Shown here: positions 57,511-64,000 of the stretch, piece by piece
Layout: the number at the start of each line of letters is the position of its first letter
Position numbering within the stretch: the stretch's first letter is position 1
From: Pseudohalocynthiibacter aestuariivivens
GTDB lineage: Bacteria > Pseudomonadota > Alphaproteobacteria > Rhodobacterales > Rhodobacteraceae
Reading direction: 5' to 3'
DNA length: 64,000 nt
Assembly: GCF_011040495.1 (NCBI RefSeq)
Contig: NZ_CP049042.1
Span: forward strand, 26,430-90,429
The notes under the pieces: model-generated
What the model saw: the letters and a program-made list of their open reading frames with translations, nothing else
Told to the model about the DNA's origin: nothing
Databases searched by the model: none
Made by a program: the position numbers and the translations under genes

Positions 57511-57798
57511 TCAGTCGCTCTTCTTGTCGATTTCCTCTGCGGCTTCGACGCGCGCGCGAAGCAAATGCATCAATTCGATGCATTTTTCGAGGATCTCGCG
57601 GTCGATACTGACTGCCGTCGATTCGTTCTGTTCCAGCCAAGCTTTCATCTTGGCAGCCATCTTGGGTGCCAATGGGACGCGGTTCGCAACCACCTTACTA
57701 TATTGTCCCTGCGAAACGCCCATCTGATGAGCGACTTCAGCCTGACTCATTCGAGCGGATTGCCGCACATTTTCCACTTCTGCTATCAGGTCGCTCAT
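57511..57798 (-). CDS. XRE-family regulator
   Basis: 95 residues. Helix-turn-helix RQSARMSQAEVAHQMGVSQG, YSKVVANRVPLAP, then a short C-terminal helix. Divergent from the glycosylase gene across only 25 bp; paired ATGCAT palindromes occur at that junction and inside its own gene, so it probably controls the deazaguanine cluster and itself. Confidence 0.8.
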   Translation of the reverse strand: MSDLIAEVENVRQSARMSQAEVAHQMGVSQGQYSKVVANRVPLAPKMAAKMKAWLEQNESTAVSIDREILEKCIELMHLLRARVEAAEEIDKKSD

Positions 57799-57823: not shown

Positions 57824-57838
57824 ATGCATTTTATGCAT
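57824..57838. promoter_or_regulatory. ATGCAT-TTT-ATGCAT operator candidate
   Basis: Two ATGCAT hexamers 3 nt apart overlap the first codons of the glycosylase gene. A second pair with a 7-nt spacer (57565-57570, 57578-57583) lies in the XRE gene. Confidence 0.45.
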
Positions 57839-58666
57839 TCTAGCGCTCACTCGTCAATTCAGACCGTCTATGCAAGGTCGGAGGCAGGCTACGTCGGTCG
57901 TAACTTGCCCTCGGCAGATCAACGTCTGGACATCAATGGCTTGGTTTGGGGGTTCGCTGAGGAAATCGGTTCGCCCGCATACTGGGCGGCGCAAGCCTGG
58001 ATGTGGGAAGTTGAGGCGCCGGCGCACTACAAGCTCGGTCGGAGCCTTGAGGAGGAGCTGATTGCTTGCCTGCTCGGAGGCTACGGCATTCCTGCGGAAG
58101 TTGGGCTAGCTGCATATGAACGTCTGCGAGCGGTGAACGCGGAAAGCCCATGTCGGCTTTTGGATGAGGAATTCGTCCTTGAGCTACTTGCCGACCCATT
58201 GGACCTGAACGGGAGGCTTGTTCGCTACCGGTTCGCAAAACAGAAATCGGCCTATCTTGCAGGGTCGATGCGCGCGCTTCGAAGTTTGGACCGAGAGGCC
58301 CCTGATAGAGAGCTGCGAGATGCGTTGACAGCGCTGCCGGGAGTGGGGCCAAAGACGGCTTCCTGGATTGTCCGAAATTGGCGTGATAGCGATTGTGTTT
58401 CGATTTTGGACATCCACATACTGCGCGCGGGCAGAATGCTGCAGATATTTCCTGAGGGGAAATCTGTCGAACGCCACTATCTTGAGCTGGAAGAGGCTTT
58501 CCTCGATTTCGCGGAAGCGATCTCTGTCAAAGCTTCCATCTTGGATTCTGTCATGTGGATGAACATGCGTCAGATACCTGCCGCAATCCTGCGAAGACTG
58601 GCCGACCCATCGGTCGAAGTTTTCTCGCCGAAGGCCGAGCCAGTTCAACTAAGCTTGGCGCTGTAA
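57824..58666 (+). CDS. OGG-like HhH-GPD DNA glycosylase
   Basis: 280 residues. Helix-hairpin-helix LPGVGPKTASWIVRN with candidate catalytic Lys177 and the following ILDIHILRAG with Asp196, the Lys/Asp pair of bifunctional 8-oxoguanine-type glycosylases. Start is uncertain: ATG 57824 or ATG 57833, both within the operator-like repeat and without a ribosome site. Such OGG-like proteins are ancillary genes of type IV CBASS; here it heads a cluster with QueC- and deoxyribosyltransferase-like genes. Substrate base unknown; may act on a nucleobase or a nucleobase-protein adduct. Confidence 0.78.
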   Translation: MHFMHSSAHSSIQTVYARSEAGYVGRNLPSADQRLDINGLVWGFAEEIGSPAYWAAQAWMWEVEAPAHYKLGRSLEEELIACLLGGYGIPAEVGLAAYERLRAVNAESPCRLLDEEFVLELLADPLDLNGRLVRYRFAKQKSAYLAGSMRALRSLDREAPDRELRDALTALPGVGPKTASWIVRNWRDSDCVSILDIHILRAGRMLQIFPEGKSVERHYLELEEAFLDFAEAISVKASILDSVMWMNMRQIPAAILRRLADPSVEVFSPKAEPVQLSLAL

Positions 58667-58758
58667 ATTCCATAATCCGTTGATTAAGCGCTTTTCTTAA
58701 GGTGTGTTCCCCCCTAGGTTGAGGTGGTTCGCGGTGCTTTGGATTTAGGAGGATTGAC

Positions 58759-59130
58759 ATGTCAGGTGGTGGTGGAGGGCGTGACGATTACACGCCGCCG
58801 AAGATCCCCAATCGACCAGGTGCAGGAGGGGGTGGTGGTGCCGGAGGCGGCGGGGCCGATCCTTGCGCCATTTTTCAGCAAGCGCCCCTCAATAGTCCCC
58901 GCCCAGCCGTTGTTTCGACCCTTGCTGTTGGAGACGTCTTGGACGTTGTTTTGAACTTAGGTGGTCCGCGTCCCATATTGGAAGTTCATGCGCCTGCCGG
59001 TGTTGCTGGCGCGTTGACCCATACCGGTCACATGCAAATTGTGGACTGCATTCAAAACGGACACCAATACGTCGCTGAAGTTGCAAGCCGATCCGGCGCC
59101 GCAATTACACTTCAGGTCCGGCCCGCATGA
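58759..59130 (+). CDS. Small protein with polyglycine N-terminus, candidate conjugation substrate
   Basis: 123 residues. The N-terminus MSGGGGGRDDYTPPKIPNRP and a second run GAGGGGGAGGGGADPC are flexible, glycine-rich tails ahead of a compact beta-rich domain (VVSTLAVGDVLDVVLNL, GALTHTGHMQIVDCIQNG). Ribosome site TAGGAGG is excellent. Its stop overlaps the next gene in ATGA. Cap9-type QueC enzymes modify an N-terminal glycine, so this protein is the natural candidate acceptor of a deazaguanine; that is inference from its tail and operon. Confidence 0.75.
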   Translation: MSGGGGGRDDYTPPKIPNRPGAGGGGGAGGGGADPCAIFQQAPLNSPRPAVVSTLAVGDVLDVVLNLGGPRPILEVHAPAGVAGALTHTGHMQIVDCIQNGHQYVAEVASRSGAAITLQVRPA

Positions 59131-60320
59131 TTACAATTGCAGGTGGTGTATATCGTGAAAGCTGCATCGAGCCGCATTGGGATGACATATTCGGGTCAGC
59201 GGGCCGAGCAGCTGTCGCTTTAGCTGATACAGGCGAGACAATTTCCCTTCATACAGTTCGCGCCAAATCACTTTCGGCTGGAATTGAAAATTTGTTTGCG
59301 GCCTTCGGGATAGATACAACCGGTCCGGAGGTCGAAGAAGGGGTCGAGTTCGAATATATGCATTCGCTCGGTACGCCGAGAATTACGCCTCGACCCGACG
59401 CTATTCCTCAGTACCCCCCTTTTGAGGTGGTAGGAGACGTCGTGCTTCGTTTTGGCATGCTTGAGGGGAGTGCCCGAGTTGCCGGGGGTCGGGTTGTCTA
59501 CGATCCGCAATCGGCATTCGATCCTCGGCCGTACCACGAGAATGGTTCCAGCGCTGAGACTCTGGCCGTCATCTTGAACAGGCTTGAAGGCCGCCGCCTC
59601 TCTGGGCGGACTGAACCCTTCGAGATCGTTGAACACATCCTTGATGAATGGAAGGCTGACGTTGTTGTCCTGAAAATGGGAGGACACGGTGCGATGGTCC
59701 ACGTTCGTGGTGAGACCCCTGTGCCAGTGCCATCATACCGAAGCGAGAATGTCTGGAAGATTGGGTCCGGAGATGTGTTCTCTGCAGCTTTTGCCTATTA
59801 CTGGGGTAAGCTCGAGAAACCTGCTGCGGAGGCCGCGGATCTCGCATCCAGAGCGACGTCCTACTACTGTGGCACGCGTTCTCTCCCACTGGTGCCTGAA
59901 GATACATTGCGCGAAGTGGTAAAAGACGCGGTCGAGCCGAGGGGCGGCAAAGTCTATCTGGCTGCACCGTTCTTCAATTTGGCCGAGCGCTGGATTGTTG
60001 AAGAGGTCCGCGAACAGCTCTTGCACATGGAAGTTGAGGTCTTTTCGCCACTTCATGATGTAGGCGTAGGTCCGGGCGATGTGGTCGCGAAACAAGATCT
60101 CGCGGGACTCGACGAGTGTTCCGTTGTGCTCGCGATTTTGAATGGAGGCGACGCCGGTACAATTTTCGAGATTGGCTATGCGGTGGCGAAAGGAATTCCG
60201 GTCATTGCATTGGCGCAGAATGTGCGGCCAGAGGATCTCAAGATGCCCATGGGCACAGGCTGTCGAGTATACGAAGACCTGGTGACCGCGATTTACCAAA
60301 CAGTTTGGGCTGAACCATGA
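59127..60320 (+). CDS. PfkB-family kinase fused to nucleoside deoxyribosyltransferase
   Basis: 397 residues. The N-terminal ~260 residues are a PfkB/ribokinase fold with catalytic Asp216 (KIGSGDVFSAAFAYYW). Residues ~275-397 match nucleoside 2-deoxyribosyltransferase: KVYLAAPFFNLAERW, DECSVVLAILNGGDAGTIFE with catalytic Glu348, and EIGYAVAKG. The fusion could phosphorylate a nucleoside and break or exchange its N-glycosidic bond, for example to free or install a deazaguanine base. Overlaps its neighbours on both sides by 4 bp. Confidence 0.83.
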   Translation: MITIAGGVYRESCIEPHWDDIFGSAGRAAVALADTGETISLHTVRAKSLSAGIENLFAAFGIDTTGPEVEEGVEFEYMHSLGTPRITPRPDAIPQYPPFEVVGDVVLRFGMLEGSARVAGGRVVYDPQSAFDPRPYHENGSSAETLAVILNRLEGRRLSGRTEPFEIVEHILDEWKADVVVLKMGGHGAMVHVRGETPVPVPSYRSENVWKIGSGDVFSAAFAYYWGKLEKPAAEAADLASRATSYYCGTRSLPLVPEDTLREVVKDAVEPRGGKVYLAAPFFNLAERWIVEEVREQLLHMEVEVFSPLHDVGVGPGDVVAKQDLAGLDECSVVLAILNGGDAGTIFEIGYAVAKGIPVIALAQNVRPEDLKMPMGTGCRVYEDLVTAIYQTVWAEP

Positions 60321-60910
60321 AAGCACTTCTCCTGTCCGGAGGCATGGACTCCATTGCCGTCGCGTTCTGGCAGCGTCCTGAGATTGCCATCACGATTGAC
60401 TACGGGCAACGCGCAGGCGAGGCAGAAATTACTGCGGCGAGCCAAGTGGCAAAAGAAATCGGAATACGGCACGAGATCATTGCGATCGACTGCCGCGCCA
60501 TTGGTTCCGGTGACATGGCGGGAAACGATGCCCTCGGTGTCGCGCCCGTACCGGAATGGTGGCCATTCCGCAATCAGTTGCTCGTGACCTTCGCCGCTGC
60601 TCGGGGAATAGTTCTCGGCGTAACCGAGGTGATGACCGGATCGATCTCGTCTGACGGCACGCACGCAGATGGACGTCCTGAATTCTACGACGCAATGGAT
60701 AGGGTGACCGCTGTGCAAGAGGGCGGCATCCGCATCTCGGCCCCAGCCCTTACCATGACGACCGCCGAACTGGTGCGACATTCAGGTGTCCCGCGCGAGA
60801 TTCTGGCATGGGCCCATTCGTGCCACACTGGGAATTTGGCCTGCGGCCAGTGTCGCGGATGTGTGAAACATTATCAGGTGACCAAGGAAATCTACGGTGT
60901 TGCCTATTGA
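60317..60910 (+). CDS. QueC-like 7-cyano-7-deazaguanine synthase homologue
   Basis: 197 residues. PP-loop SGGMDS at 7-12 for ATP activation and a four-cysteine zinc site (Cys169, Cys176, Cys179, Cys182 in SCHTGNLACGQCRGC). Canonical QueC turns CDG into preQ0; CBASS Cap9 and Qat QatC homologues attach the deazaguanine to a protein N-terminus. No other queuosine genes (QueD, QueE, FolE) are present, which argues for the protein-modification role. Confidence 0.87.
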   Translation: MKALLLSGGMDSIAVAFWQRPEIAITIDYGQRAGEAEITAASQVAKEIGIRHEIIAIDCRAIGSGDMAGNDALGVAPVPEWWPFRNQLLVTFAAARGIVLGVTEVMTGSISSDGTHADGRPEFYDAMDRVTAVQEGGIRISAPALTMTTAELVRHSGVPREILAWAHSCHTGNLACGQCRGCVKHYQVTKEIYGVAY

Positions 60911-61565
60911 TGATGAACCTCGCCCGATACTGCCTCCCCAAGCCACGACGAGAGCTAGCTTTCCAGGAAACGGAGTCCTTGAACTTCCGAAGCCGCGACT
61001 TCTTCCGGATGTGGGTCTGCCGGACGTCCTGGCGGCCCGTCGGTCGGCAATCTCGGGGCGGGTTTCCCGGCAGCAATTGGGAGACCTCCTCTTTCACCTG
61101 ATGCGTGAGCGATGTCGGGGCCCAGGGCGGTTCGGTGTCCCGTGGGTTGGCCGAGCAAGCCCGTCAGCGGGTGGATTGCATGTCCTGTCGATACTTTGCA
61201 TTCCGGTTGGGGAGAATGACCCGGTTGGTGTCTATGATCCTTCCTCGCACGCCCTCAAGCTAGTCCAAGACCCGACCCCTGTGAGAGATGCGAATTCAGA
61301 TAGCGTGAATTCTCTCTGTTCGGCGACAGCTGGAACGACCCTTCAATTCGTCGCTGATATCGAATTTCTTGAAAGCTGCTACGAGAATAGCGCCAGCCTT
61401 ATTTGGCGTGACAGCGGTGCGCTCGCCATGGCGATTTGCATGGTTGCAACAAGTTTGGGAATGACTTCGGTGGTGCTCGGGAGAGTAGGAAGCTCGCTAC
61501 TCGGCGGCAAGAACTTCACCGACCGTTTTGTCGGTGCAGGTGCGGTACATTTGGGCGGAGGATAA
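60897..61565 (+). CDS. SagB-like nitroreductase-fold protein
   Basis: 222 residues from GTG 60897 (AAGGAAAT upstream), overlapping queC by 14 bp. Features of the SagB/McbC flavin dehydrogenase branch: RASPSAGGLHVLSILCIPVG, GVYDPSSHALKLV and the C-terminal YENSASLIWRDSGALAMAIC, ALGMTSVVLG-like region. In RiPP pathways SagB oxidises azolines on peptides. Here it might oxidise or reduce the conjugated nucleobase or its linkage. Shorter and more divergent than typical SagB. Confidence 0.6.
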   Translation: MLPIDDEPRPILPPQATTRASFPGNGVLELPKPRLLPDVGLPDVLAARRSAISGRVSRQQLGDLLFHLMRERCRGPGRFGVPWVGRASPSAGGLHVLSILCIPVGENDPVGVYDPSSHALKLVQDPTPVRDANSDSVNSLCSATAGTTLQFVADIEFLESCYENSASLIWRDSGALAMAICMVATSLGMTSVVLGRVGSSLLGGKNFTDRFVGAGAVHLGGG

Positions 61566-61617
61566 AAATGGGAGCCTGTTGCGAGTGACATCGATTTCAC
61601 GACGGAAGGCAAGAATT

Positions 61618-62169
61618 GTGAAAGGTGGTGTGGTCTTCTCCTACATTGGCTTTTTGCTGACGGGACCAGCTTCGAACTGGCTCATTCAGAACGTGGGAAC
61701 TCATTGCGTTCCCAATGGGCCGTGCTTGGTACCGGTCTTGCCAGGTATATCTGCGCCGAGCGGCGTTCTAATGGTCGGCCTAGCATTGGTATTGCGTGAT
61801 CTCGTCCACAGAGATCTAGGGGCGTACTGGGCGCTTTCCGCCATTATTTTGGGAAGTCTCATATCTGCGCTATTTTCACCCCAAGCGCTCTTAGTCGCAT
61901 CCACAACTGCATTTCTCTTGTCGGAGCTTTCAGATTTCGCGGTTTTTGCCCCGCTGCGTCGGCGCGGATTCGTGGTGGCCGCGTTGGTCAGTAGCATTGT
62001 TGGCTTGCTTGTTGATAGCTTGGTTTTTCTGTGGCTCGCGTTCGGCAGTTTGGACTATTTGGCCGGACAGGTTTTGGGCAAACTCTACATGGTCCTCGTA
62101 GCCATCCTAATCGTTGCCATTTGGGAGCGTCGAAGGGGAATTTGGGCAAAGCGCCCGACGCCGCTCTAG
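61618..62169 (+). CDS. VUT/YhhQ-like membrane transporter, probable 7-deazaguanine precursor uptake
   Basis: About 183 residues from GTG 61618 (GGAAGG at 61604-61609); an earlier GTG at 61585 is possible. Six hydrophobic segments; the family hallmark ELSDFAVFAPLRRRGFVVAA and SGVLMVGLALVLRDLVHRDLG match VUT/YhhQ transporters that import queuosine precursors preQ0/preQ1. It would supply the base for the QueC-like enzyme when the host lacks de novo synthesis. Confidence 0.72.
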   Translation: MKGGVVFSYIGFLLTGPASNWLIQNVGTHCVPNGPCLVPVLPGISAPSGVLMVGLALVLRDLVHRDLGAYWALSAIILGSLISALFSPQALLVASTTAFLLSELSDFAVFAPLRRRGFVVAALVSSIVGLLVDSLVFLWLAFGSLDYLAGQVLGKLYMVLVAILIVAIWERRRGIWAKRPTPL

Positions 62170-62317
62170 GAAAAGTCATAATGGGACAAGGCAGCGGCGT
62201 TTGAAGTGATCGTGAATCTGGCAGGTGTCTAGGAGACTAGGGGTACCTCAAGGATCGGGCCTGTGCGTACGCGTCCGCTATTGTCATGAGGCATGAAAAG
62301 TTGGGAGAATCCTGCAC

Positions 62318-64000
62318 ATGGTGTCGGAGAGTGAAACCAAGAACGAACCGCCAAATCTGATCGAGAGCTTTCTTATTCCGAAGGCATCCGGTGTTTCACC
62401 GCTGACCTTCAGACTTCCGAGCGAAGACGGACGCGGCTCGGTGACTGTTCTTTGCGGAGAAAACGGAACCGGAAAGTCTTTCATCCTCAGAGCTTTGAAG
62501 GGGGTGGCAACAGCCAAGCAGTCGTCAAAAAGCTTTCCTGGCTTCAAGCTCAAGACAACGGGTCAAGGTCGGGTCAACATCGTTCGCCCGCATCACCACA
62601 AGGAACGCATGACGTCGCTTGGCATCCTGGGCGAGGTCCAGGCAGGAAAGAAGGTCAATCTAGGTGATGAGTATCTGAGGTTGAAAGTCGGGCTTTTTGC
62701 CCTGCTCATGCCGCATATCTTGGAGGCGATAGAGGCACCAGATGATTTTCAGGCCGAAGAATGGCTCGACAATGAGACCTATCGGCAGTCGGTCCACCAA
62801 CTGGTTCCGGATGAAGAAGAGGCGCTCTGCATGCTGGATGTCGCCGAGCACGACTTCCTCAGGGTCTTCTTGAAGGTCACCAACGCGGCTCTGGGTTTTC
62901 GCAAACACGAAAAGGGCATCGAACTCGTCTTGGTTTGGGGCAATGGTGTGGTTGCACCCTACCCCGATTGGAGCGACGGCCAGAAGTCACTCTTCACGAT
63001 CATGACCGAGATCGCAGTCGACCAACCCGACGTGTGTGCCTACGATGAGATCGAGAATTTCTTCCATCCCAGATACATCTCCGATGTGCTGGAGTTTCTC
63101 AAAGATCATGTGCCTCAAACCATCCTGGCATCGCATCACCCACATATGATCTTCGGTCGCGCTGTTGATGACGTCTACTTCGTCGAGCTTGAAGATGTAC
63201 GGGATCCTGTCGGACCTACCCGCATTGTACGCCGCCCATCGCAGCCAATTCCGAAACGCCGTTTCACAAGGCTTAGAGATGATTTCAGAAGGCTTGCCTA
63301 TACTTACAAGCTCTTCGACATTGCCGATGCCAGATTGCTGTCCCAAGCAGCCTCGAGCACAGAGCTGACTTCCAGCACGGTCAAGTTGGCAATGGCAACC
63401 GCCTTCGAGTGCGCTGCTGCGCCGGCCCGCGCCAGCCCTTATCCAGACCGGCAGACCGCCCAGATCGGTGTTTTCCTTGAAAAGTACTTCTCCGGGATGG
63501 CCACCCTTGATGTGGTTGATTGGGGTGCCGGCCTCGGGCGAACTGTCAAAGAAATTCGCAAGACAGGTGCGGCGGAACAAATCCGTTGGACGTTGTTCGA
63601 ACCCGGCGCTGACACCGGCAAACAATTGGCCGAGCTTCATGCCAATGACCCAGAGATCACGATAGTTCCAAATGTCGAAGCGCTGGCGCATATCTCTGCC
63701 GACGTCGTTCTTCTGACGAACGTCCTACACGTACTTCGCCCCGCTGACATCGCCGAGGCAGTGAGTTGCGTTTGGAAGATACTCGCGGAGCGAACGGGCG
63801 TCTTGATTGTCTCGGAGATATTTCCGCTTCTTATGCCGGAACAGAACGCTGTTCCCGTGCCTGACCATCACCTTGTGATGTTTCTTCGAGAGGTTGGCTT
63901 CGCCGTCGCACAGGTCAGTTTCGAAGTTGCAGGTTGCTCGGCCTATTGCCTGGCTGCGAAGGTGAAGCCGGGTTCACCGCTTGCAGCAGCGGCAATTGAG
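62318..64000 (+). CDS. ABC/AAA-type ATPase fused to a methyltransferase-like domain, 3' end cut by window edge
   Basis: 561 codons without a stop to the right edge. Walker A CGENGTGKS (47-54), signature WSDGQKSL (218-225), Walker B CAYDEIENFFHPRY (241 onward) and H-loop ASHHPH (271-276) define an AAA_21/OLD-like ATPase of the kind common in defence. From about residue 395 a SAM-binding motif VVDWGAGLGR (399-408) and TNVLHVLRP follow, resembling a class I methyltransferase. ATG 62318 has GGGAGAA upstream. It lies 148 bp after the transporter gene and may be the effector or sensor of the cluster. Confidence 0.78.
   Translation, partial: MVSESETKNEPPNLIESFLIPKASGVSPLTFRLPSEDGRGSVTVLCGENGTGKSFILRALKGVATAKQSSKSFPGFKLKTTGQGRVNIVRPHHHKERMTSLGILGEVQAGKKVNLGDEYLRLKVGLFALLMPHILEAIEAPDDFQAEEWLDNETYRQSVHQLVPDEEEALCMLDVAEHDFLRVFLKVTNAALGFRKHEKGIELVLVWGNGVVAPYPDWSDGQKSLFTIMTEIAVDQPDVCAYDEIENFFHPRYISDVLEFLKDHVPQTILASHHPHMIFGRAVDDVYFVELEDVRDPVGPTRIVRRPSQPIPKRRFTRLRDDFRRLAYTYKLFDIADARLLSQAASSTELTSSTVKLAMATAFECAAAPARASPYPDRQTAQIGVFLEKYFSGMATLDVVDWGAGLGRTVKEIRKTGAAEQIRWTLFEPGADTGKQLAELHANDPEITIVPNVEALAHISADVVLLTNVLHVLRPADIAEAVSCVWKILAERTGVLIVSEIFPLLMPEQNAVPVPDHHLVMFLREVGFAVAQVSFEVAGCSAYCLAAKVKPGSPLAAAAIE

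Follow-up and report, generated by a model that had tools for sequence, protein, structure and literature searches.

Here we focus on a group of genes at the end of a 64,000-nucleotide stretch of Pseudohalocynthiibacter aestuariivivens DNA (hereafter the window), which covers positions 26430-90429 of a 90,429-bp contig; the genome has 4.56 Mb and its completeness is estimated at 99.98%. The genes center on a QueC-like enzyme, a fusion of a PfkB kinase with a nucleoside 2-deoxyribosyltransferase (PfkB-NDT), and a small glycine-rich protein referred to as PG. Together they probably form a third QueC-based protein-tagging defence system, in which a deazaguanine would be joined to the N-terminus of PG. 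The conjugation of PG, its timing and purpose, and its role in defence we infer. An earlier reading of the window from its letters (the original prediction) had proposed a deazaguanine donor, PG as the acceptor, and a function in defence; these proposals now have indirect support from hosts that lack TGT, from the N-terminal motif of PG, and from PADLOC matches of neighbouring genes.

The composition of the system was read from 80 loci, the window and 79 others with a related QueC (40-96% identity), each scanned within 7 kb. QueC is present in 80/80 loci, PfkB-NDT in 77/80, PG in 71/80, a SagB-like oxidoreductase in 58/80, and an OGG-like glycosylase in 57/80; a related helix-turn-helix (HTH) gene occurs in 34/80, a VUT transporter in 9/80 (six inside the gene block), and an AAA ATPase-methyltransferase in 2/80. 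The core unit is PG, PfkB-NDT and QueC, usually accompanied by the SagB-like and OGG-like proteins, and nine PG-bearing loci of Bacteroidota hold the PG-PfkB/NDT-QueC unit with OGG and SagB unmatched. The hosts belong to the Pseudomonadota, Bacteroidota, Actinomycetota, Myxococcota, Acidobacteriota and Verrucomicrobiota, and plasmid records extend them to a cyanobacterium and haloarchaea. As the gene order recurs across many bacterial phyla and on haloarchaeal plasmids, the arrangement goes beyond chance. The core set is found on plasmids, and two IMG/VR viral contigs carry PG, PfkB-NDT, QueC, the SagB-like gene and OGG; among phage records there were 138 QueC matches, none of them reaching 60% identity and the best of the 20 listed standing at 33.5%. 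When 385 genomes of the class were searched with a PG profile, with up to 11 candidates scored in each, just three matched (the window genome, the host of the L005 plasmid, and G309), so the gene set is patchy. In all three, PG adjoins PfkB-NDT and QueC.

Sequence searches of Pfam and the PDB returned nothing usable for PG, and the HIRAN Pfam profile matched none of 64 PG members at E 0.1. Its AlphaFold2 model, with a block-mean predicted local distance difference test score (pLDDT) of 85-97 from residue 31 onward, was matched best by 3k2y (lp_0118) in Foldseek (E 7.9e-4, template modelling (TM) score TMt 0.72, probability 1.00), the sole match with E < 0.001. We take lp_0118 to be a HIRAN domain. 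The next matches were HIRAN chains of human HLTF (E 0.03-0.2, TM ~0.5, probability 0.98-1.00), and on the strength of the model PG is predicted to fold like a HIRAN domain behind an N-terminal tail. The HIRAN domain of HLTF binds DNA 3' ends, and PG is possibly a DNA-end-binding protein as well. The C-terminal domain is folded and conserved, and conservation within the tail peaks at the extreme N-terminus. With the start taken as the last ATG ahead of the folded part, a rule that makes no use of the motif, the sequence opens with M[SGTAC]G[SGR] in 61 of 66 PGs, and with exactly MGGS in four. Glycine occupies residue 3 in 62 of the 64 aligned homologues, all of which retain C36, G84 and C97; beyond the motif the tail is glycine-rich and of variable length. 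This N-terminus resembles the MGGS of the CD-NTase of the type IV cyclic oligonucleotide-based antiphage signalling system (CBASS) and the MGTS of QatB. In those two proteins the Met is removed, and Gly2 is the modified or essential residue (PMC13279940; here and below, PMC papers are cited from their accessible parts). By analogy, PG would be the third such N-terminal partner of a QueC-family enzyme.

The QueC-like enzyme has 197 residues and covers positions 4-201 of the 210 in the QueC profile. Its PDB matches are Cap9 (9nto, 4.8e-8) and QueC (3bl5, 1.2e-7; 2pg3, 4.2e-7), and by the best single stretch B. subtilis QueC outscores Cap9; judged by sequence, Cap9 and canonical QueC are its nearest solved relatives, about equally so. 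The ATP motif SGGxDS is kept in 87/90 homologues and CH(x)5CxxCxGCxK in 82/90, and the motif sequences of the window enzyme, CHTGNLACGQCRGCVK, fit both. At the canonical YPDC site 87/90 have HxDG, which means that the base-site Asp is kept; QatC has lost this Asp and carries Thr instead (PMC13279940). The enzyme likely belongs to Cluster 4 of PF06508, for which a QueC and PfkB-NDT pair with an HTH neighbour has been described and purine salvage proposed (PMC13329287). SGGxDS, CH(x)5CxxCxGCxK, the PfkB-NDT neighbour (77/80 loci) and the HTH neighbour are common to both. The published Cluster 4 motif YGQ(x)6E fits 3/90 homologues and YGQ(x)5E fits 85/90; since this mismatch is perhaps a difference of counting in the paper, the assignment is kept as likely.

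The donor can be approached through the hosts' own pathways. Host genomes were searched for QueC (PF06508, 50 genomes), QueD and QueE (PF01242 and TIGR04508, 24), QueE again (TIGR03365, 12) and TGT (17), and canonical QueC was recognized by score, canonical copies reaching 180-263 bits and Cluster 4 copies at most 102. A completeness figure is reported for G000 only, which bears on all host absences given here. TGT had no match in four of the 17 genomes (G044, G045, G047 and G048), all four actinobacterial and without canonical QueC. G044 (L072) and G048 (L081) carry QueD and QueE inside the locus, where, with neither TGT nor canonical QueC in the genome, the pair can hardly serve tRNA queuosine; in G045 (L073) and G047 (L078), QueD and QueE were unmatched, and the sole VUT of the genome sits in the locus. 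VUT transporters are associated with preQ0 and preQ1. Given TGT-less hosts with either a QueD-QueE pair or the sole VUT in the locus, a deazaguanine precursor is very likely the donor. The simplest reading of the gene content is that the system consumes such a precursor, 7-carboxy-7-deazaguanine (CDG) being the product of QueD and QueE. QueD and QueE-like genes stand at the locus in the actinobacterial L072, L079, L080 and L081, and a QueE-like gene in L082; QueD exceeds the NCBIfam cut-off in the three tested (L072, L080 and L081), and the QueE models are the best matches for the QueE-like genes, below their cut-offs.

In the wider set, canonical QueC is missing from 16/50 host genomes, namely from 5/6 hosts with VUT in the block versus 11/44 others (Fisher p 0.0098). 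Neither QueD nor QueE was matched in 7/24 hosts, with TIGR03365 agreeing for all seven, and six of these, the window host included, are also without canonical QueC, so that precursor import would be required there. Aside from the QueC of the system itself, PF06508, PF01242, TIGR04508 and TIGR03365 found no QueC, QueD or QueE in the window host, a second PF06508 match being a 75-position fragment in another protein. This is in line with the absence of a queuosine pathway noted in the original prediction, with TGT present in the host. The same gap gives some ground to a metabolic explanation, in which QueC, PfkB-NDT and VUT would provide deazapurines for tRNA, by recycling or synthesis, as part of purine or queuosine-precursor metabolism. 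Both PfkB-NDT and VUT are of a salvage type; in the window host TGT is present but canonical QueC, QueD and QueE are unmatched; and six Bacteroidota hosts with TGT, QueD and QueE-like genes have only the Cluster 4 QueC, which could make preQ0. However, 30/30 other genomes of the G040 genus are without a full-length QueC match (best 6.5e-7), which indicates that the gap in QueC is unrelated to the system. Nor does salvage for tRNA fit with the 4/17 searched hosts in which TGT is unmatched, a regular HIRAN-like partner with a conserved N-terminus, a defence-island setting, and a patchy spread (3/385), and we regard it as quite unlikely. G040 itself has TGT, QueD and QueE-like matches.

Defence genes are enriched near the loci relative to controls on the same contigs. 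For 20 loci, five nearby non-core open reading frames (ORFs) each were set against five distant ones, all of at least 150 amino acids and drawn from a home-made gene picker that may pick wrong frames; in L081 and L082 the QueE ORFs, and in L076 one ORF of great length, were passed over for the next in rank. At 1e-20, PADLOC matched 36 families in the 100 neighbouring ORFs versus 1 in the 100 controls (the latter with 2 members), these being counts of families rather than of distinct neighbour proteins. Among the 25 of 36 that are listed are dGTPase (3 members), GajB, DarT, DarG, LmuA, capP, two reverse-transcriptase systems, DolB, AriA, AriB, Upx, DpdD and PDC-M37B. Annotated plasmid copies are similarly placed, with TIR proteins near L089, L097 and L100, multiubiquitin-ThiF pairs near L088 and L099, Mrr-type or 'restriction endonuclease' genes overlapping or trailing the operon in L094, L096 and L097, Dam-type methylases near L088-L090 and L093, and dGTPases near L090, L091, L096 and L099. 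The presence of nucleases and dGTPases beside some copies suggests that the Mrr-type nucleases and dGTPases are candidate exchangeable effectors.

Several individual neighbours can be placed more exactly. The Mrr-type nucleases lie downstream at L094:9309-10391 (Mrr_cat 9e-12) and L096:9591-10310 (6e-11), the L096 copy overlapping QueC by 4 nt. In 15/80 loci a dGTPase-like gene lies within 8 kb (e.g., L064:6976-8355), and on a Moraxella plasmid (L091:10572-12062) one overlaps the end of QueC at the usual place of SagB. Right after QueC in Rufibacter (L055:10605-12514) stands a pair of an AAA ATPase and a DUF4435 protein, perhaps another defence unit. Two loci with Gly at residue 2 of PG (L062:10578-11309 and L069:4546-5196) have in common a gene of 216-243 amino acids in the same position (cluster c73), and its L069 copy gave no Pfam match.

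Some of these neighbours would also suit a scheme in which the enzymes produce 7-deazaguanine deoxynucleotides or clear them, with PG and OGG recognizing modified DNA. N-glycosidic bonds are the targets of the NDT and OGG families, dGTPase-like genes lie nearby in 15/80 loci, and 1 of the 100 neighbouring ORFs matches DpdD (2.1e-141), a member of the Dpd DNA-deazapurine system. The conserved N-terminus of PG would then require another reason, however, and we find the scheme improbable.

If deazaguanine is instead the tag of PG, QueC would spend ATP to activate the carboxylate of CDG and, once the first Met is removed, join it by an amide to the PG N-terminus, a bond modelled on the chemistry of Cap9. 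Weaker suggestions can be made for the two proteins that act on N-glycosidic bonds. The motifs G[SAT]GD and GTxxExG of PfkB-NDT are each kept in 78/79 full-length homologues, and the PDB matches of its NDT part are NDTs and Rcl (2khz); the protein probably handles the sugar of the base, first as a kinase and then as an N-glycosidase or by base exchange, either freeing the base from nucleosides or placing a sugar on the tag. OGG, whose best PDB matches are 8-oxoguanine glycosylases/AP lyases (9o00 and 3fhf) and whose pattern KTA...D.H[ILV].R is kept in 60/62 full-length homologues, probably acts on invader DNA. Where residue 2 is Ser or Thr, the SagB-like enzyme may oxidize a ring made from its side chain (that of Ser) and the new amide. 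Once tagged, PG would sense foreign DNA or block it, accompanied in some loci by a nuclease or dGTPase.

The oxidation step draws on the SagB-like protein, which is so named because its TIGR03605 score of 35.3 bits is below the cut-off of 78.4. The original prediction had called it SagB and a nitroreductase; what had gone unnoticed is that its nearest solved relatives are azoline oxidases. Searched against the PDB, its profile finds CyaGox/ThcOx first (3e-12), followed by nitroreductases, BmdC and McbC, and the nearest fold to its model (pLDDT 95.3) is ThcOx, with a ranking similar to that of the sequence search. We presume ThcOx/CyaGox, BmdC and McbC all to function as azoline oxidases. Across 80 loci readable for both features, residue 2 of PG is Ser (55) or Thr (1) in 56/56 SagB-positive loci, and Ser (11), Cys (2), Gly (10) or Ala (1) in the 24 SagB-negative ones. 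This set omits the near-duplicates L029, L048, L052, L071, L087 and L097 as well as loci with an unreadable PG start or a cut end (L004, L006, L019, L026, L038, L050, L059, L065, L067, L077 and L079), and allows a non-ATG PG start for L014, L016, L017 and L030. The raw Fisher p values of 1.2e-5 (68 loci) and 2.4e-7 (80 loci) overstate the link, and a tree-based test gave 2 supported independent pairs and no significance. Actinomycetota and Verrucomicrobiota each hold both states, co-varying. As 13 loci without SagB also have Ser or Cys there, the link holds in one direction only, and it is a lead, lacking phylogenetic power, that suggests ring closure on Ser2 to an oxazole.

Taken further, this lead gives a tentative and rather unlikely version of the proposal, in which the N-terminal Ser of PG becomes a deazaguanine-oxazole through QueC and the SagB-like enzyme and PfkB-NDT supplies a nucleotide-like head. 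QueC would run both ancestral ATP steps on the protein, first forming the CDG amide with the Ser amine and then activating the amide oxygen, as canonical QueC does en route to the nitrile preQ0. The Ser hydroxyl would attack the activated amide to give an oxazoline, which the SagB-like azoline oxidase would aromatize; PfkB-NDT would add a phosphosugar, and the HIRAN-like domain would present the nucleotide-like head to DNA ends. Gly or Ala at residue 2 cannot close the ring, so such loci would be without SagB. If true, PG would carry a new post-translational modification, and its azole would arise without YcaO. That the system is instead similar to those of ribosomally synthesized and post-translationally modified peptides, with PG as a precursor peptide, the SagB-like protein and QueC modifying its glycine-rich part and a small product being released, is very unlikely: the SagB-like protein is nearest to azoline oxidases and microcin B17 also has a glycine-rich stretch, but PG retains its folded, conserved C-terminal domain with tail conservation strongest at the N-terminal extreme, it occurs without a SagB match in 17 loci (one cut by a contig end), and neither a protease nor an exporter is evident in the 22 largest neighbour clusters, which were not annotated one by one.

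Several observations weigh against tagging of PG by deazaguanine in defence. On the side of the acceptor, PG was not seen in 9/80 loci; tblastn gave no PG remnant in these nine, of which L004 and L059 start at or near a contig edge within PfkB-NDT, and others have a partial PfkB-NDT or lack it. Gly3 is missing from 2/64 aligned PGs, and residue 2 is mostly Ser, where CBASS modifies Gly. On the side of the enzymes, the base-site Tyr of QueC and Cap9 is replaced by His in this family, and the minimal unit QatBC has nothing corresponding to PfkB-NDT. The donor raises its own difficulties. Import is needed in six hosts, yet VUT proteins are known for preQ0/preQ1 (PMC5372724) rather than CDG, and two of the six, G002 and G023, have no VUT in the block. 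G010 has canonical QueC but unmatched QueD and QueE, a pattern that makes missed matches possible in these searches; in G004, QueC and QueE were matched and QueD was not. There are also two counter-cases to the TGT-less hosts, G046 (L076), with canonical QueC, QueD and QueE elsewhere in the genome but no TGT match above the threshold, just one below it, and G049 (L082), with TGT present. Lastly, no single effector is conserved, and the locus sample was picked through similarity to the QueC of the window.

In the window itself, the gene positions and families of the original prediction were confirmed by ORFs in place and by Pfam/TIGRFAM profile matches (Table 1). The five genes from PG through PfkB-NDT, QueC and the SagB-like gene to VUT run in one direction, as had been stated, with four overlaps (4, 4, 14 and 38 nt) where three had been counted.

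Table 1. Genes and domains of the QueC-like locus, in window coordinates.
Feature	Position	Strand	Evidence or remark
XRE-type HTH regulator	57511-57798	-	Pfam HTH_3 9.6e-6; divergent from operon
OGG-like N-glycosylase/DNA lyase	57824-58666	+	Ogg-HhH 3.1e-10
PG, glycine-rich HIRAN-like protein, proposed acceptor	58759-59130	+	Homologues in 71/80 loci
N-terminal motif M-S-G-G of PG, proposed conjugation site after Met removal	58759-58770	+	Family motif M[S/G/T/A/C]G[S/G]
HIRAN-like domain of PG, residues 36-123	58864-59127	+	AlphaFold2 and Foldseek
PfkB-NDT, PfkB kinase-nucleoside 2-deoxyribosyltransferase fusion	59127-60320	+	PfkB 4.7e-7; Nuc_deoxyrib_tr 1.5e-16
NDT-like domain of PfkB-NDT	59952-60239	+	Nuc_deoxyrib_tr, residues 276-371
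QueC-like enzyme, likely PF06508 Cluster 4, proposed conjugase	60317-60910	+	QueC 1.3e-25
SagB-like flavin mononucleotide (FMN) oxidoreductase	60897-61565	+	TIGR03605 7.6e-9, below cut-off
VUT/COG1738-type precursor transporter, accessory	61528-62169	+	Vut_1 6.3e-10; TIGR00697 1.8e-8, below cut-off
AAA ATPase-methyltransferase, open at contig end	62318-64000	+	AAA_21 5.3e-14; Methyltransf_12 4.7e-4, below cut-off

Position 64000 of the window is the exact end of the contig. The two contig ends neighbour each other in a Ruegeria relative, with 95.2% identity for the window end and 89.3% for the contig start, separated by a spacer of 258 bp there versus 1,706 bp in the window plasmid. Because they adjoin in this relative, the contig is consistent with a circular plasmid, in agreement with the setting first proposed. 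The joining of seven families into one system was not supported, the AAA ATPase-methyltransferase (2/80) and VUT (9/80) falling outside families that otherwise recur together. VUT was rejected as a core part and is treated as accessory, with six of its nine occurrences in the gene block. The ATPase-methyltransferase was likewise rejected, being damaged in both copies seen. It is missing from the Roseivivax plasmids pTHAF30_b and pTHAF40_c, which are 94.6% identical over the rest; the frame changes in L048 and the 3' end has been replaced on the window plasmid, which makes it look like a decaying gene, and it is probably a neighbour outside the core. The replacing sequence, in place of the ATPase-methyltransferase end present in the Ruegeria relative, bears the ABC-3C genes for the middle component MC2 (6.5e-35) and a CTD6 protein (1.7e-41) at L003:16-1587, at the contig start, continuing from window position 64000. 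Two variants of the locus were seen elsewhere. The haloarchaeal plasmid copies L092, L098 and L100 apparently have two PG-domain repeats, with SagB and OGG unmatched, and in a distant subtype (L101:3266-6282 and L105:5613-8614), PG (starting MGS[ST]GSG), PfkB-NDT, QueC and OGG are co-directional and SagB is unmatched.

Protein deazaguanylation has been reported for Cap9 and the CD-NTase of type IV CBASS (PMC11996544, PMC13279940) and proposed for Qat (PMC13279940). QueC-driven N-terminal tagging in immunity is therefore known; nothing in print was found on the acceptor family, on the accessory chemistry or on the whole system. A literature search, with subscription literature mostly outside it, gave no publication on the HIRAN-like partner or the whole system, and the accessible parts of PMC13329287 and PMC13279940 make no mention of SagB, nor that of PMC13329287 of HIRAN. 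The description of the system as previously undescribed thus needs narrowing, as the QueC and PfkB-NDT pair is in print as Cluster 4; its partner is unnamed in the accessible part of that paper (PMC13329287), which proposes purine salvage. The function of Cluster 4 becomes a directly addressable question on the 12 kDa PG. If the proposal is true, it would add a third layout of deazaguanylation, spread over several bacterial phyla and haloarchaea and with an acceptor of DNA-binding type, in which CDG-supply genes lie within the locus in some hosts and an oxidase may make an aromatic ring of the tag. Conjugation of nucleobases to proteins would then look like a general chemistry of immunity.

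Like type IV CBASS, the system pairs a QueC-family enzyme of about 190 residues with a partner whose N-terminus is made of conserved small residues. The acceptor is a CD-NTase in CBASS and would be a HIRAN-like protein here, with PfkB-NDT and the SagB-like enzyme in addition, and the base-site Tyr of Cap9 reads His in the window QueC. A profile scan found no CD-NTase among eight window proteins (the other loci were not profile-searched), and none is named among the 25 of 36 PADLOC neighbour families listed, where one neighbour matches capP. The same eight proteins gave no match to the KAP ATPase QatA or the TatD nuclease QatD, in keeping with the original prediction, which had seen neither CD-NTase nor TatD nuclease. 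With qatABCD the system has in common a QueC-family enzyme, a partner with a disordered N-terminal tail and conserved motif (MGTS in QatB), and a role, here probable, in defence. QatC, however, has about 400 amino acids with N- and C-terminal extensions and Thr for the base-site Asp, whereas the window QueC is free of extensions and keeps the Asp, and QatB is helical where PG is HIRAN-like. Among azoline oxidases, ThcOx/CyaGox is the closest solved relative of the SagB-like protein by both sequence and fold, the latter being small and stand-alone. With the HIRAN domains of HLTF (4s0n, 4xzf) and lp_0118 (3k2y), PG has its predicted fold in common by Foldseek; it differs from them in having no Pfam or PDB sequence match and in carrying two invariant cysteines and an N-terminal tail.

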